Positions 40,278-46,212 of a stretch of 64,000 nucleotides of DNA are shown one piece after another. The notes below the pieces were generated by a model that worked only from the letters and a program-made list of their open reading frames with translations, was not told the DNA's origin and searched no databases. Every line of letters starts with the position of its first letter. Within the stretch, counting starts at the first letter, position 1. Origin of the DNA: Vibrio gallaecicus (GTDB lineage: Bacteria > Pseudomonadota > Gammaproteobacteria > Enterobacterales > Vibrionaceae); contig NZ_AP025490.1 in assembly GCF_024347495.1 (NCBI RefSeq), positions 1,736,001-1,800,000 of the forward strand, in the 5' to 3' direction. A program made the translations under genes and the position numbers.

Positions 40278-41750
40278 ATGAGTGCCTTCAAAAAATTAGT
40301 CGACCATTCTCAAAAATGTTCTCACTTCAACCACCTAGCTGCAATTTGCGGTTGGGATCAAGCGTCAATGATGCCTTCTGGTGGTAACCAAGCTCGTAGT
40401 GAAGCTATGGCTCAGTTATCCGTTCATATTCACGGAATGATGACCCAACCACAACTATCCGATTGGATAAATGACGCAGAAAATGAATCATTAAATTCTG
40501 AACAGCAATCGACATTACGCGAAATCAAGCGTAACTGGCAACAAGCAAACCTACTTCCAGAGAAATTAGTTCAAGCTAAATCACTCGCTGGCTCTAAATG
40601 TGAACATGCATGGAGAACTCAACGCGGTGAAAACGATTGGGTTGGCTTTGAAAAAAACTGGCGAGAAGTCGTTGAGCTTTCTAGAGAAGAAGCGCAAATT
40701 CGTGCTGACTTTGCAGGGCTGACTCCATACGATGCCATGCTTGATATTTATGAACCAGGAACCAGTTCTGCGTCTCTTGATACTTTATTCTCAGACGTAA
40801 AAACATGGCTACCAGGCTTAATTGATCAAGTCATTGATAAGCAATCTACTGAACAATTTACCGCGCCATCAGGTAAATACTCGACAGACAAGCAAAAAGC
40901 GCTTGGTCTTCAAGTGATGAGCTTGCTTCAATTTGACTTCAACCATGGTCGTTTGGATGAGAGTGTCCACCCATTCTGTGGCGGTGTTCCATCTGATGTT
41001 CGTATTACCACTCGCTATGATGAAAATGAATTTGTTCAGTCTTTAATGGGCATCGTCCATGAAACAGGTCATGCTCGATATGAGCAAGGGCTTCCTAAGC
41101 ACCTTTCCGGCCTTCCTTCTGGTGAGGCTCGCTCAATGGGTATCCATGAATCTCAATCACTATTTTTTGAAATGCAGATTGGTCGCAGTGACGAATTCAT
41201 CGGTCACTTAGCTGAACTTGCAGAGCAACAATTTAGTGGAAATGAGTTTGAGAAAAGTAATTTCCAAAAAATTTATACTCGCGTAGAAAAAGATTTCATA
41301 CGTGTGGATGCAGATGAACTGACCTACCCAGCCCACGTAATTCTTCGATATGAGATTGAACGTGACTTAATTAACGGAAAAATCAAACATACAGACGTTC
41401 CTGAACTTTGGAACCTTAAAATGCAGCAATACTTAGGCTTGTCTACTGAAGGTAATTTTAAGAATGGTTGCATGCAGGATATTCACTGGACAGACGGAGC
41501 ATTTGGCTACTTCCCTAGCTATACACTAGGTGCAATGTACGCCGCTCAATTTATGGCTTCGATGAAGAACGATTTGGATGTGAGTTCTGTCATTCAAAGT
41601 AAAGATCTAACGCCTATCTTCAATTGGTTAGAAACGAACATTTGGAGCAAAGGTAGCTTACTCACAACTGACGAACTCGTGAAGCAAGCAACAGGTGAAA
41701 CATTGAATGCTCAGCATTTCCAAGATCACCTGAAAAATCGCTACCTCTAG
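40278..41750 (+). CDS. M32-family metallocarboxypeptidase (Taq type)
   Basis: A 490-residue zinc carboxypeptidase. The HEXXH motif reads HETGH near residue 262 with the downstream SMGIHESQSLFFE segment that supplies the third ligand, and the characteristic RYDE and TYPAHVILRYE blocks are present. These enzymes remove C-terminal residues from peptides in the cytosol. A TTG further upstream is open, but the ATG follows AGGGAAG. The last 242 bp and more of this gene are repeated at 44716-44976 beyond about 3 kb of unrelated cargo. The final four codons here (CGC TAC CTC TAG) differ at each wobble position from the second copy, so this tail was probably brought in with the insertion (inference). 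Confidence 0.96.
   Translation: MSAFKKLVDHSQKCSHFNHLAAICGWDQASMMPSGGNQARSEAMAQLSVHIHGMMTQPQLSDWINDAENESLNSEQQSTLREIKRNWQQANLLPEKLVQAKSLAGSKCEHAWRTQRGENDWVGFEKNWREVVELSREEAQIRADFAGLTPYDAMLDIYEPGTSSASLDTLFSDVKTWLPGLIDQVIDKQSTEQFTAPSGKYSTDKQKALGLQVMSLLQFDFNHGRLDESVHPFCGGVPSDVRITTRYDENEFVQSLMGIVHETGHARYEQGLPKHLSGLPSGEARSMGIHESQSLFFEMQIGRSDEFIGHLAELAEQQFSGNEFEKSNFQKIYTRVEKDFIRVDADELTYPAHVILRYEIERDLINGKIKHTDVPELWNLKMQQYLGLSTEGNFKNGCMQDIHWTDGAFGYFPSYTLGAMYAAQFMASMKNDLDVSSVIQSKDLTPIFNWLETNIWSKGSLLTTDELVKQATGETLNAQHFQDHLKNRYL
41490..41750 (+). repeat. Left copy of the direct repeat (3' end of the M32 gene)
   Basis: Matches 44716-44976 at a constant offset of 3226. Positions 41499-41740 are identical to the other copy over 242 bp. 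One mismatch is at 41498 with 8 matching bases beyond it, and four mismatches lie at 41741, 41744, 41747 and 41750, all third codon positions. Confidence 0.97.
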
Positions 41751-41760
41751 TTAGGTTACT

Positions 41761-41792
41761 GACATGTACTCAATTTCCTCTGAGTACATGTC
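41761..41792. repeat. Perfect 12-bp inverted repeat at the left edge of the insertion
   Basis: GACATGTACTCA (41761-41772), an 8-nt loop, then TGAGTACATGTC (41781-41792). It starts 11 bp after the M32 stop, has no T-tract, and is the first sequence of the cargo side. It might be a terminator lacking the T-run or a structured end of the mobile segment. Confidence 0.75.
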
Positions 41793-41892
41793 TCATTATT
41801 CAAAACCATCAAAACCATCAAAACTAAGCTCGATCAACCACTAGGTAGATTCTATGAAGCAGTTTATTCCTGAATTAGCTGCGTAATCTCGG

Positions 41893-42051
41893 CTATATCA
41901 CCCATTTGATAATTAGATAAATCACACTGATTGTTGCCAATGTACTCATTGTTGATTCAGTGTTGCTTCTATAAGTTGTACCATAGCTATAAATACCAGA
42001 GACAGTAGTCCAAATTATTACGACAGCAATAATAGATAAAATAATATTCAT
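41893..42051 (-). CDS. Small two-helix membrane protein of the cargo (52 residues)
   Basis: Starts MNIILSIIAVVIIW, has a polar middle rich in Ser/Thr (GTTYRSNTESTMSTLAT) and ends in a second hydrophobic stretch SVIYLIIKWVI. AAGG lies about 9 nt before the ATG. It begins 10 bp after the stop of the secreted helical protein on the same strand and so is probably cotranscribed. I do not recognise it. A small membrane protein beside a secreted partner could be an immunity, anchor or export component (speculation). Confidence 0.6.
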   Translation of the reverse strand: MNIILSIIAVVIIWTTVSGIYSYGTTYRSNTESTMSTLATISVIYLIIKWVI

Positions 42052-42061
42052 ATGTTCAGCC

Positions 42062-43300
42062 TTATTGCATTTGTGCTGTTAATTTTTCGAATTCTTCTTT
42101 CATTTTTTCGTTTTCGAAAGAAATCAAATCAGGCGCTTGCAAATTCATCACATCATCAAATAGCTTTGAATTTTCATTAATTAAATTTGCAACATTAAAT
42201 GATAGATCAACAGTTTTGTAAGTATTCACCGCAACAAGATAATCTTCTTTAAGTCGATATTTTGCATTTTTTATTTTTTTCAAATCCGATTGCAACTGCT
42301 TCTTATATAAATCTACAGCTTTTAAAGTAAACCTCTGATTATCTAAGTTATTTTGATATACATTTTTATTATTTCCTTTAGCTTTCCTAACTAATCGCTT
42401 AGTATCTTCAATTAACTTCACATTACTCTTACGCAACTCATTAATTTGTGGGATAAACGTATAATCTAACTTATTAATATATTGATCTTGAATAAACAAT
42501 TGAAGCTCTAACAACATTACATACATACCGTAATATTTTTTAGCAGCTTCTAAGTCTTCTCCAGTATCTTGAGTAACTTGTCCCAAATAATTAGCAAACT
42601 CACTGATAATAGGAAATATTGTTGTCATTGAAAGAATATCATCAGCATTTACTTTTATTAGCAAAGCTTCAACTTGCTCCTCAGTAACATAAGTTCCAAA
42701 ATCAGATAGTCGATTTTGTACAGCTACAATTATTTCACTTTTTTTTGCGTCGGTATAAGCTATTTTTTCTTCTAATTTTAAAATGTTGTTTTGTATTTTT
42801 TCTTTATCATCTGCATCAAAACTAAATCTATAATTCTCTTTTAACTTAGACAAATCTGAAAGCTGCTCCTTTCGATAGTCTGCATTCTTAATTAATTGCT
42901 TTTTATAATCCTCTAAATCTTCATCACTAATAGTTTCAAATATTTGACCTAGTAGTTCATTAATATCATCTTGATATTTATCTTTGCCTTTTTTAAGAAA
43001 CCCAGACTGTTTGGGGGCATCTTCCTGCTTTTCTTTGATCTCATAGATTTTACTGAATCTCTTATTAAGACTTTCCCAGTGCTCTACAACTGATTCTTCA
43101 GTTACCGTCGGTTTAATTTCTTTAGAGGCTGGGGCTAAATCTAAAGTGATAGAATCTGAAGAGTTTACAAGTTCTTTTGCTTTGTCTAACCCTGAATTCA
43201 GAGTGTCTTTCCAATCAGCATATGCAGGTTGTGCCATAGCAAAACTAAGTAGAATAGAAGAAATTAATATGTGCTTTTTGATATTCACGACTGTACTCAT
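42062..43300 (-). CDS. Secreted, mostly helical protein of unknown function (cargo)
   Basis: A 412-residue protein with a clear signal peptide: basic start, hydrophobic core SILLSFAMA and cleavage after PAYA near residue 28. The mature part is predominantly charged and helical, with long Lys/Glu/Asp/Leu stretches suggesting coiled coils (about 95-200 and 290-360), and no cysteine. No family is recognised. The gene is strikingly A+T-rich compared with flanking metabolic genes, which suggests acquisition by transfer. It is divergent from the repeat protein at 43352, with only 51 bp between the two start codons, so the promoters must overlap and expression is likely linked. Confidence 0.7.
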   Translation of the reverse strand: MSTVVNIKKHILISSILLSFAMAQPAYADWKDTLNSGLDKAKELVNSSDSITLDLAPASKEIKPTVTEESVVEHWESLNKRFSKIYEIKEKQEDAPKQSGFLKKGKDKYQDDINELLGQIFETISDEDLEDYKKQLIKNADYRKEQLSDLSKLKENYRFSFDADDKEKIQNNILKLEEKIAYTDAKKSEIIVAVQNRLSDFGTYVTEEQVEALLIKVNADDILSMTTIFPIISEFANYLGQVTQDTGEDLEAAKKYYGMYVMLLELQLFIQDQYINKLDYTFIPQINELRKSNVKLIEDTKRLVRKAKGNNKNVYQNNLDNQRFTLKAVDLYKKQLQSDLKKIKNAKYRLKEDYLVAVNTYKTVDLSFNVANLINENSKLFDDVMNLQAPDLISFENEKMKEEFEKLTAQMQ

Positions 43301-43351
43301 ATGTTATTTTACAGAACTCTATTCTGGTAAATTATATGAGGTCTAAAACTC

Positions 43352-44476
43352 ATGTCAAACATAAAACTGGTTGCAATTACATTTTTAACAACATCGACAA
43401 CAATACTATTAATTTTGGCTACAACGTTTCACTTTGGTAAATATAAAGTAATCCATGTTAACGAATATGATAAATCCAAAATCTTTATTGCAAAAATAGA
43501 TGGCTTTAAAGATAAATATGAAAAAAAAGCTAAAGATCTAACTAAAAACTACGTAAAAAACACTACAAAGAAAATGACCAAGAGTGCTATTTCATCGGCT
43601 ACTATTGGCACAGCAGCGGTGGTCGGTATCACGGCAATCTTTGCAGCAGAAGATTACTGTACATCTCATCGAGATATGATTGATGAAATCAATTTTTTAT
43701 TTGATAAAAATGATAAATTTGATTTTAAAAAATGCTATTTTCAGGCCATTTCAGATTTACAAGAATCGGGCAAATATCTAAAAACAGAATTAACAAAGTA
43801 TACAGTTTTAACTATTGGTGGCACAAAAGCACATTTTTCTAAACAAGCTGACTCTGCATCACAAAGCTGGGAAGACATGCTCACGAAAATAGACTCTGTG
43901 ACTAATGACTCTTTTTCCAACAGCCTCAATAAGGTTAGTAGTTCAATTCGAGTACAAAGCAACAAAATAGCAAATACATCGACAAGCACTGTGAACCTGA
44001 TGAAAAATAAAACTGAAGACCTTTCTGATGCTACTGAAGACGCTATCGATGCCATGAAAGACAAAGCTCAAGACATTTCTGATGCTACTGAAGATGCTGC
44101 CGATGCCATGAAGGACAAAGCTGAAGACCTTTCTGATGCTACTGAAGATGCTGCCGATGCCATGAAAGACAAAGCTAAAGACCTTTCTGATGCTACTGAA
44201 GACGCTGTCGATGCCATGAAGGACAAAGCTCAAGACCTTTCTAATGCTACTGAAGACGCTGTTGATGCCATGAAGGACAAAGCTGAAGACCTTTCTGATG
44301 CTACTGAAGACGCTGTTGATGCCATGAAGGACAAAGCTGAAGACCTTTCTGATGCTACTGAAGACGCTGTCGATGCCATGAAGGACAATGCTCAAGACCT
44401 TTCCTATTCTATGTCTTCAAAATTAGACAAGCTCAGCAACTCAGCTAAAGATGGCTTGGGAAAACTTACCAATTAA
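43352..44476 (+). CDS. Membrane-anchored protein with seven 18-residue amphipathic repeats (cargo)
   Basis: A 374-residue protein. The N-terminal helix (about 7-27) acts as anchor or uncleaved signal. A second hydrophobic stretch SSATIGTAAVVGITAIFAA lies near 82-100, and two cysteines (EDYC, FKKC) follow. Residues about 220-345 are seven near-identical repeats of 18 residues of the type KAEDLSDATEDAVDAMKD. Eighteen residues equal five turns of an alpha helix, so every repeat keeps the same face, giving one long amphipathic acidic helix, as in LEA or apolipoprotein-like proteins (comparison of pattern only). I recognise no family. Divergent from the secreted protein at 42062 and carried on the same inserted segment. 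Confidence 0.75.
   Translation: MSNIKLVAITFLTTSTTILLILATTFHFGKYKVIHVNEYDKSKIFIAKIDGFKDKYEKKAKDLTKNYVKNTTKKMTKSAISSATIGTAAVVGITAIFAAEDYCTSHRDMIDEINFLFDKNDKFDFKKCYFQAISDLQESGKYLKTELTKYTVLTIGGTKAHFSKQADSASQSWEDMLTKIDSVTNDSFSNSLNKVSSSIRVQSNKIANTSTSTVNLMKNKTEDLSDATEDAIDAMKDKAQDISDATEDAADAMKDKAEDLSDATEDAADAMKDKAKDLSDATEDAVDAMKDKAQDLSNATEDAVDAMKDKAEDLSDATEDAVDAMKDKAEDLSDATEDAVDAMKDNAQDLSYSMSSKLDKLSNSAKDGLGKLTN
44009..44386 (+). repeat. In-frame 54-bp tandem repeat, seven units
   Basis: Seven consecutive 54-bp units, each encoding 18 residues, with a degenerate eighth start after 44387. Units differ at a few positions (I/A/V in DAxDAM, E/Q/K before D) and at synonymous sites, so the array expanded by duplication and then diverged slightly. 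Units 6 and 7 are the most alike. Confidence 0.95.
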
Positions 44477-44525
44477 TCTTTTGCTTTGAGAGCATCTGCA
44501 GTTAACTATTAATTTGTTTTAGGGA

Positions 44526-44744
44526 ATGCTAATGCTAACCTTAAAGTTATTATTTGCTGGGATAATACCGTATTCCAATACTGGATTGGTATTGTCCATT
44601 TCTTGGATTAACGCACTCTGCATTTCGTTCTATAGCACATACTACAAAGGGTTAGAGCGCGGGATTAAGAAAGGCTCAATTGTTTTGAACAATAACGCCC
44701 GTATACTAGAATCAAACAGACGGGGCATTTGGCTACTTCCCTAG
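44526..44744 (+). CDS. Small membrane protein cut by the right repeat junction (cargo)
   Basis: A 72-residue frame. AGGGA lies just before a pair of in-frame ATGs (44526, 44532). It has a hydrophobic N-terminal helix, a second one (LVLSISWINALCISFY) and a basic tail (RGIKKGS). The final nine residues or so (NRRGIWLLP) are read from the duplicated M32 sequence that begins at 44716, so the original C-terminus was lost or replaced when the segment joined here. Unknown family; possibly a third membrane component of the cargo. Confidence 0.45.
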   Translation: MLMLTLKLLFAGIIPYSNTGLVLSISWINALCISFYSTYYKGLERGIKKGSIVLNNNARILESNRRGIWLLP

Positions 44745-44976
44745 CTATACACTAGGTGCAATGTACGCCGCTCAATTTATGGCTTCGATGAAGAACGATT
44801 TGGATGTGAGTTCTGTCATTCAAAGTAAAGATCTAACGCCTATCTTCAATTGGTTAGAAACGAACATTTGGAGCAAAGGTAGCTTACTCACAACTGACGA
44901 ACTCGTGAAGCAAGCAACAGGTGAAACATTGAATGCTCAGCATTTCCAAGATCACCTGAAAAATCGTTATCTATAA
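44716..44976 (+). pseudogene. Duplicated 3' fragment of the M32 carboxypeptidase gene
   Basis: This repeats the last 261 bp of the M32 gene (86 codons plus stop) at an offset of 3226. It encodes the same C-terminal residues but lacks a start region and the HEXXH catalytic part, so it cannot make an active enzyme. It ends with CGT TAT CTA TAA, and the normal-looking terminator follows 38 bp later. It therefore probably represents the original chromosomal 3' end, displaced by the insertion (inference). Confidence 0.93.
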
Positions 44977-45013
44977 GCCTAGGATTTTTAGGCTAGTTCT
45001 GAATACTAAAGTT

Positions 45014-45046
45014 AAAACCGCTCATAATGTGATTGAGCGGTTTTTC
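45014..45046. terminator. Bidirectional terminator after the M32 3' fragment
   Basis: A 10-bp stem AAAACCGCTC / GAGCGGTTTT with an 11-nt loop and a T-run on the plus strand. It lies between the M32 fragment and the convergent TraF-like gene, and was probably the native terminator of the M32 gene. Confidence 0.9.
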
Positions 45047-45081: not shown

Positions 45082-46212
45082 TTAGAACGTTAGTGCTAGG
45101 TTTGCACTTACTCCAAATTGATTATCACCTGCGTAAGACGCTGCTAAATCAAAACTCACAATATCCCATGGTGAGATCCCCAAACCAGCATTCATGCTAT
45201 CTTCTAAATTATCTTCTAAATCGGTCTCATAGCCTGCCCTTAATTGAGCCCAACCCCAAGCGTTAAACTCTATGCCTGCCCTAACAAATTGAGTGGCATT
45301 ACTACTCATAGAAAAGCGTTCTTGACTTGTTAAATCGGCATCAAGGCTTACAGTAAACAACTCTGTGATATAACCGCCGCCAATTGTCACTTTGGGAGCA
45401 AGTTCATACGTAAGGTGTGAGTTTTTCGTCTCAATCTCTTGTTTAATCAAGTTTTTACCAACAAGTCCCACACGCCAGTTATCCTTATACCAAACGGCTC
45501 CCACGTCTACGTTGAATACCGTATCTGACACTTCACTATCTTCATAGTCATCAATATCAAAGTCATCTAAAGATGTAACATCAGAATAGGTACGAAGCTC
45601 TTGCAGTTTAGGGCTAATACCAAAAGAAAACTTTTGCTCCTTTAGTATGTATTCCTTCGATAAAGCTAAACCAAATTCAGCGACACCAAAGCCCGTAAGG
45701 GCGACTTCAGAATTTTCATATCGCTTTTTAGCATTAGCTTCATCACCAATCAAAGGGTTAGCCATTATCTCCACATATGTGGATGAGAACACATTCACTG
45801 AGGCGTATTGATTAGGGATAGAAATGCTAAATGCAATCCCGCCATTTACGTTAATTGGCTTTGCACCTGACAAGTCATTCAGATACTGATCCAATGTGTC
45901 GTATTCTTCTTGAGAAGGTAGCCTTCCCATTGAATCATAATGATCTTGAACATCATCAATCATTGCTAGTGCATCGTCTGAGTCTTGGACAGTAACACCA
46001 ATAGCAGGGATTAAGAGCCCAATATCATCTTCTGCACGATATGCAGCGCCTAATGCTGGGTTGTGAAAAGGAGCGGTTAAAAAGTCTGCGGTTACAACAC
46101 CAGTGTTACCCATACCCATACTGCGAGCATCAGTTGAAAATGTACTGGCTTGCGCTGTGCTTGCTGCACACACGGAAGCCACGGCTAATGTGATTAAGCC
46201 TTTGCTATGCAT
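45082..46212 (-). CDS. TraF-like outer membrane beta-barrel protein (TraF_2 family)
   Basis: A 376-residue protein with a signal peptide cleaved after TAQA near residue 22, followed by STDARSMGMGNTGVVTADFLTAPFHNPAL, the N-terminal plug-like motif shared by FadL-like and TraF_2 proteins. The rest alternates in beta-strand style and ends in an aromatic terminal strand (VSANLALTF). Such proteins are often named conjugal transfer TraF in Vibrio, but no other conjugation gene is here, so that name says little about function. AAGGAATTGCT precedes the ATG. It may transport hydrophobic or small molecules across the outer membrane (inference). Confidence 0.85.
   Translation of the reverse strand: MHSKGLITLAVASVCAASTAQASTFSTDARSMGMGNTGVVTADFLTAPFHNPALGAAYRAEDDIGLLIPAIGVTVQDSDDALAMIDDVQDHYDSMGRLPSQEEYDTLDQYLNDLSGAKPINVNGGIAFSISIPNQYASVNVFSSTYVEIMANPLIGDEANAKKRYENSEVALTGFGVAEFGLALSKEYILKEQKFSFGISPKLQELRTYSDVTSLDDFDIDDYEDSEVSDTVFNVDVGAVWYKDNWRVGLVGKNLIKQEIETKNSHLTYELAPKVTIGGGYITELFTVSLDADLTSQERFSMSSNATQFVRAGIEFNAWGWAQLRAGYETDLEDNLEDSMNAGLGISPWDIVSFDLAASYAGDNQFGVSANLALTF

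Follow-up and report, generated by a model that had tools for sequence, protein, structure and literature searches.

A gene-restoring island at the M32 carboxypeptidase gene of Vibrio gallaecicus, probably a stranded member of an apparently undescribed family of serine recombinase islands

Introduction

Islander-type islands split a target gene and restore it, mostly by means of tyrosine integrases at tRNA or tmRNA genes (PMC4383910; this and the other cited papers are drawn on in part, and our comparisons extend to those parts). Here we analyse an element that has restored the gene of an M32 carboxypeptidase in Vibrio gallaecicus. The window, a stretch of 64,000 nucleotides of contig NZ_AP025490.1 (positions 1,736,001 to 1,800,000), contains an intact M32 gene of 490 amino acids (aa) at 40278..41750 on the + strand (Pfam PF02074 Peptidase_M32, E 2e-158), the last 261 bp of which are the left copy of a direct repeat, followed by cargo and by a displaced second M32 3′ end. 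We conclude, with a probability of roughly 0.7, that the element is a stranded member, without a large serine recombinase (LSR), of a family of M32-targeting LSR islands that is apparently undescribed. As in Islander-type islands, the disrupted gene is restored, and the restored target and the displaced fragment mark the island ends; unlike them, the M32 islands target a protein gene by means of a serine recombinase, and their LSR-bearing members leave a scar that is in frame and re-creates the site.

The SCC/ECC cassette chromosomes use ccr LSRs at the 3′ region of rlmH and have flanking repeats of ~50 bp (PMC6222049). They share with the M32 islands an LSR, the 3′ region of a conserved gene, very variable cargo and recombinase-less remnants with attachment (att) sites, whereas the M32 islands carry ~83 codons of the gene end and one LSR rather than a ccrAB pair. 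The window's element is not SCC/ECC, as its target is M32, not rlmH, and it has no serine recombinase match. The PLE islands of Vibrio cholerae, for which the chromosomal site tested is a V. cholerae repeat, are phage-induced and moved by an LSR, with a phage-encoded directionality factor (PMC6002521); they too are Vibrio islands moved by an LSR, but their site is not a restored protein gene. The Bcep22-like phage JC1 has its attP 41 bp upstream of the LSR gene and integrates at the 5′ end of rimO (PMC9144972). Its LSR is related (33% identity), and its target differs.

Phage 21 and e14, both in icd, supply a replacement 3′ end of a metabolic gene and use a tyrosine integrase; we know of no stacked in-frame scars at icd for either. 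There is thus precedent for islands that restore their target gene, for LSR cassettes in the 3′ region of a gene and for Vibrio LSR islands, and what appears to be new here is the scar that rebuilds the attachment sequence, the stacking of scars and the turnover of the gene end. We found no paper on M32 as an integration target in the open-access literature, a result that does not show absence from print; PMC5382208 concerns, in the part consulted, a different carboxypeptidase, and the corresponding part of PMC12884075 contains no carboxypeptidase.

Results

The left repeat copy at 41490..41750 (+), the gene end as restored by the element, and the right copy at 44716..44976 (+), the displaced M32 3′ end, are identical at 256 of 261 bp in the repeat alignment. 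An earlier sequence-only reading of the window had reported a constant offset of 3226 with 242 identical bp, and the alignment confirms both, the uninterrupted identical run being 41499-41740. The five differences are at 41498, 41741, 41744, 41747 and 41750; that reading had correctly described the four on the right as three synonymous third bases and the stop codon, and had overlooked the fifth. One difference is thus at the left edge and four are within the last ten bases, and as five differences placed at random would leave an identical run of at least 242 bp with a probability of ~7e-6, the differences are concentrated at the edges. The two copies are the sole matching places in the genome, which is assembled in 2 contigs, and the gene end and the fragment are 98.8% identical over 249 bases.

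An empty site is present in G171 (genomes and loci are designated by our G and L numbers), the best match in the genus search and the closest relative, with an M32 protein 97% identical to that of the window. In G171, the M32 gene is followed by a terminator-like stretch and then by the same TraF_2 gene that in the window, at 45082..46212 (−), is the host gene after M32 (Pfam and G171). The hairpins 3′ of the fragment at 44976..45046 (+, z −3.84) form the native M32 terminator region and have a counterpart in G171. The sequence-only reading had described this terminator as looking native and had proposed an insertion that duplicated and restored the M32 end, and G171 bears out both. It had also suggested looking for relatives with the M32 gene directly before the terminator, of which G171 is one, and for strains with other cargo between the same kind of repeats, which occur in other Vibrio.

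Per 100 bases, the M32 genes of the window and G171 are ~83-97% identical upstream and 78-80% identical in the last 200 bases. The cargo is A+T-rich over most of its length, as had been noted, with a G+C content of 27-34% over ~42000-44000 (500-base windows starting 41750 to 43500), and it is found in 1 of 329 Vibrionaceae genomes. Its composition and occurrence favour gain by the window over loss in G171. In keeping with a gene-restoring island, the window thus has a restored gene, a displaced old end and an empty site in a relative; as to an island-encoded integrase, the element has no LSR or resolvase, and there is no tyrosine-recombinase motif in the cargo open reading frames (ORFs) scanned.

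Extra M32 3′ ends recur across Vibrio. A DNA match to the gene end is present in 195 of 227 genus genomes, with two or more matches in 29 (three candidates per genome were scored), and a protein query matched 218 of the 227, with two or more matches in 39, some of the second ones being weak and on other replicons. M32 3′-end fragments lie downstream of the gene on the same contig in 20 Vibrio genomes, including that of the window (G000, G007, G010, G029, G042, G044, G050, G062, G068, G141, G156, G158, G162, G187, G188, G200, G201, G202, G204 and G218; the G029 fragment is only 22 residues long), and fragments on other contigs are found in G024, G125, G155 and G198. The distance from gene to fragment ranges from ~0.7 kb (G141) to ~51 kb (G062), and G007, G044, G158, G188 and G202 have two or more fragments in tandem. 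The 10 phage records with an M32-end match are every one below 60% identity.

Most of the extra ends start within ~10 bp of one codon, the Asp of HWT-Asp-G, which is Asp406 in the window (counted from the ATG at 40278), and the displaced end of the window likewise starts at the HWT-Asp-G codons, downstream of the intact M32 gene. In all 11 fragments measured against their own gene, including that of the window, identity rises from 0.12-0.38 at −50 to −10, counted from the GA of the Asp codon, to 0.72-1.00 at 0 to +60. In G010, G042, G162 and G204, identity is high also in the nine bases before GA, which places the boundary at GA or up to ~10 bp 5′ of it. Judging from the boundary common to the other junctions, the crossover at the left junction of the window would lie at the GA of codon Asp406, 41493..41494 (+); the GA of the fragment is at 44719-44720.

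A recognisable core is present at the boundary in 29 of 34 junctions, the set comprising fragments whose match starts at residues 381-414, seven fragments from named loci or unjoined contigs, the window and a plasmid; the five junctions without a core were dropped. In attP, the motif bound by the zinc domain of serine integrases is set 5 bp outwards of its place in attB (PMC3783163). In 11 of the 29 left arms, the stretch that best matches the gene's TATGCAAGAC block is displaced outwards by exactly 5 bp; 12 arms score above 0, these 11 and that of the plasmid fragment, with a shift of 0. Four arms with the 5-bp shift come from LSR-bearing loci (G155, L157 twice and L163) and seven from LSR-less loci (G007, G042, G158 twice, G162, G187 and G204). 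A second arm type, recognised by eye around AGTGTTCA, is found in LSR-bearing G050 and L161, in LSR-less G010, G044, G188 (twice) and G200, and also in G198.

LSRs lie at the same boundary. A protein of 530-618 aa with Resolvase and Recombinase domains (PF00239, PF07508) adjoins the fragment in G050, G062 and G202, at a distance of ~30-35 bp in G062 and G202 and ~280 bp in G050, and an LSR is likewise beside the fragment in G155. In G024 and G125, the LSR is directly 3′ of the M32 gene, that of G125 being truncated where its contig stops. When named genomes were scanned with nothing but the LSR alignment, 10 loci came up, and at five of them an M32 end is found at a distance of 50-255 bp from the start of the LSR: Marinomonas sargassi L157, V. 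fluminensis L158 (= G050), Vibrio sp. J1-1 L161, M. rhizomae L163 and Enterovibrio L166, where the LSR is disrupted. The other five (two Variovorax, Endozoicomonas, Hydrogenophaga and Rhodoferax) have no M32 end in the DNA examined, and neither has any of 8 LSR relatives from viral contigs. In a tree of 40 LSRs (long ORFs matching at E 1e-15, with identical proteins not entered, six loci excluded as duplicates and L166 left out), the nine M32-associated LSRs, two of them from Marinomonas, form one clade with a support of 95 in the Shimodaira–Hasegawa-like approximate likelihood ratio test (SH-aLRT), and its sister group comprises viral contigs, Variovorax and Endozoicomonas. LSRs of any kind are present in 55 of the 227 genus genomes.

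The restored genes of LSR-bearing islands carry an in-frame scar. In the scarred proteins, the host NGCMQDIHWTD is followed by a linker, a second NYxxGCMQDIHW and then the rest of the end, a structure that indicates that the island carries the gene from ~14 codons before the crossover, restoring the protein with an insertion and rebuilding the attachment sequence. Scars are present in eight Vibrio genomes (G024, G050, G062, G125, G155, G202, G208 and G029) and in two Marinomonas genes, and in G029 two scar units are stacked in a row. Wherever an undisrupted LSR and the gene are both in view, the gene is scarred (8 of 8 loci: G024, G050, G062, G125, G155, G202, L157 and L163; in G155 the two are on different contigs). 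Conversely, no PF07508 match is present at the locus of any of the 16 genes that have downstream fragments but no scar; G007 and G068 have one elsewhere in the genome. The Enterovibrio locus combines a broken LSR with a scarless gene; G029 and G208 have scars, yet no PF07508 match in the genome.

The gene-end tree, a quick one in which 44 of 93 inner branches are open and one abnormal branch (G018) was kept, groups two fragments each of G202 and G044 and that of G062 with native ends, in a clade with a support of 98, and puts the present ends of their genes outside it. The fragments are thus native and the gene's end is the newcomer in these three genomes; scarred ends do not form a single group. 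Identity between gene end and fragment is 61-76% in LSR-bearing islands, a divergence due to the foreign origin of the end that the gene now has, and 65-99.6% in islands without an LSR. In close pairs, third-base identity in the last 83 codons is 0.138 below that of the rest (standard deviation 0.164; 62 genes out of 218 genomes with a match, a non-random set in which many were chosen for having two matches), whereas the other bins deviate by −0.066 to +0.050. A single-breakpoint scan is significant in 42 of 71 close pairs, which lack independence (the 42 draw on 24 genomes); the 3′ side is the more divergent in all 42, and 16 of the breakpoints are at codons 405-407. Island visits appear to have swapped the ending of the M32 gene in many species.

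Discussion

We suggest that 41750-44716 is the remnant of a genomic island that entered the M32 gene by means of an LSR. The LSR would recombine attP on the circular island with attB in the HW-T-D-G codons, most likely crossing over at the GA of the Asp codon, and the island would supply its own version of the last ~83 codons, LSR-bearing members also bringing a second copy of the ~14 preceding ones. Integration would leave the gene whole again, with a short insertion in frame and a new attB, and would push the old end downstream as a fragment. The copy in the window would represent a late stage, reached after the island had integrated, the scar and then the LSR had disappeared and homologous recombination had homogenised the two ends. 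Its LSR founder, the exact crossover bases and this order of decay are what we infer from the comparison. The edge differences and the identical core fit an originally more divergent end that homologous recombination has since overwritten; in G187, the two ends have one difference in 249, also near the end.

Several observations weigh against an LSR origin. The whole genome of the window has no PF07508 or PF00239 match, so that its copy is at most an LSR-less derivative; its 490-aa gene has no scar and no second NYxxGCMQDIHW, as in other LSR-less islands; and the candidate attP arm, the 40 bases left of the fragment's GA at 44679..44718 (+), fits neither arm type in the arm comparison. In the gene-end tree, both ends of the window are sister to the end of G171, and a foreign end is therefore not visible. 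In other genomes, fragments begin upstream of the HWT-Asp-G codon (G068, G141 and one of G198) or downstream of it (G029, G156, G201, G218, one of G007 and one of G198), the latter being tentatively read as eroded; G208 is scarred, yet its end is native-like; and 26 of the 42 significant breakpoints are elsewhere in the gene. Finally, known serine integrases recombine only attP with attB in the absence of a directionality factor (PMC3783163), which means that the seamless, scarless form needs an extra step.

The main rival is an element that replaces gene ends and depends for its movement solely on homologous recombination or natural transformation; a circle or fragment bearing cargo and a gene end from the same species would recombine within the repeat. 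The 242-bp identical core with differences at its edges only, the similar pattern in G187 and the absence of LSR and resolvase from the genome and of a scar from the window's gene are all as this explanation would have them. However, homologous recombination has no cause to begin at one codon, and the boundary is that of the LSR-bearing islands; several LSR-less islands share left arms with LSR-bearing ones; and an LSR founder with later recombination accounts for the same data. We therefore regard recombination alone as unlikely.

The claims of the sequence-only reading on movement can be judged against the same evidence. For spread by homologous recombination, one of its proposals, the evidence does not establish that the family arose in this way; homogenisation of the two copies in the window by recombination is likely. 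It had rightly found no recombinase in the segment, but had missed that several family members carry their own LSR and that the elements share a boundary at a single codon. For an integrase that acts in trans, another of its proposals, the window's genome now offers no source, having neither a PF07508 nor a PF00239 match. Diverged copies in all relatives, which it had named as a sign against a recent modular insertion, were met with in part, identities between gene end and fragment being spread as given above.

Placement of the cargo at the same codon by another recombinase, of tyrosine type or from the host, would suit the lack of an LSR in the genome and a left arm of no recognised type. Against it stand the boundary, which is that of the LSR islands, and the tyrosine-recombinase motif scan of the island ORFs, which found none in the window's cargo (the whole genome was not searched for tyrosine recombinases); its sole match, in a 1237-aa DUF3584 protein of G044 and G202, looks like chance and was rejected. 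This explanation is improbable. A local duplication of the gene end, with DNA later acquired by chance between its two copies, or else an assembly artefact, which the sequence-only reading had listed as a refutation, would explain two nearly identical ends but is scarcely credible given the empty site of G171, the A+T-rich cargo seen in a single Vibrionaceae genome, the recurrence of this arrangement at that codon across many species and, against an artefact, a genome in 2 contigs and the presence, on a contig of another length (P0003), of a protein that is identical to the 412-aa cargo protein over 95% of its length.

An LSR origin could be extended, tentatively, to a scheme in which the M32 site is a self-renewing docking site. 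With every island bringing a gene end that holds a new attB, successive islands would stack in the sequence in which they came, the host enzyme would keep in-frame scars of their visits, small LSR-less units would ride on the recombinases of their neighbours as the serine-recombinase equivalent of integron cassettes, and losses would leave a permanently foreign end. The M32-targeting LSR islands, if correctly read, reveal an apparently undescribed integration hotspot in Vibrio and marine relatives and a serine recombinase clade whose target codon can be predicted, and the host enzyme would preserve a legible history of their visits. Mobile DNA would time and again replace the last sixth of a conserved gene, with misleading effects on gene trees.

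Cargo and other features

Further M32 matches were noted outside the set described above. The V. diabolicus plasmid pSLV18-213K (L167:12001-12255) has an unannotated M32 3′ end of 80% identity, with no LSR among the nearby annotated genes. Weak matches to the M32 end (46-49%), on another contig and in a frame of ~730-750 aa, occur in G046 C2, G205 C10, G206 C2, G208 C2 and G212 C2. In G131 (C1 155358-155606), with two genome matches, the M32 gene is in a 588-aa open frame and is possibly another scarred gene. In the window, a hairpin with a 12-bp stem follows the restored gene at 41761..41792 (+, z −4.25) and may be an element-borne terminator; a hairpin after the gene was rejected as a hallmark of the elements, as it is not commoner in genes with elements (5 of 17) than in those without (20 of 39).

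The islands of G007, G141, G158, G188 and G218 contain cassette-like units of ~1 kb or less, with little beyond two small ORFs between M32 ends, and one of the small ORFs in the G007 units is a ParE toxin. The short tandem units of G007, G158 and G188, some with toxin-antitoxin genes, resemble integron cassette arrays, a resemblance only. Among 76 island proteins scanned (75 of 141 from other islands and one from the window), there is one match each to BrxA, BrxB, BrxC, PglX and PglZ, together with matches to PtuA (Septu-like), MADS, other defence models, toxin-antitoxin families and two relaxases. The BREX set is most likely in G062, judged by protein size, where a 51-kb island lies between the M32 gene and the fragment (C1 1961726-2012432; L044, L096, L097 and L043), with an LSR at its right end. 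The BREX, Septu-like, toxin-antitoxin and relaxase cargo makes the M32 site a place to look for defence genes.

In the window, the cargo has four ORFs, two of them sizeable (412 and 374 aa). At 41893..42051 (−) is a 52-aa ORF, possibly a membrane peptide, with a sub-threshold Pfam match only, and at 42062..43300 (−) a 412-aa protein, predicted to be all-helical with a signal-like start. The latter belongs to no Pfam family, and its model (mean predicted local distance difference test score, pLDDT, 76) has no match in the PDB at E <=0.001. A named relative is found in Moritella marina (65%), and relatives at 38-42% occur in five genomes of another genus (L172-L176), in a conserved place beside metNIQ-like genes (names read from sequence) and without M32 or LSR. 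The conserved location suggests that the relative is probably a resident gene there; given this setting and the lack of Pfam and PDB matches, we make no functional claim for the 412-aa protein. At 44526..44744 (+), a 72-aa ORF, perhaps truncated, enters the fragment in another frame. A 374-aa protein with 18-residue (54-bp) repeats is encoded at 43352..44476 (+); the G+C content returns to ~40% in this repeat-bearing part of the cargo, where seven in-register 54-bp copies at 43946-44465 encode Ala/Asp/Lys/Glu-rich 18-residue repeats.

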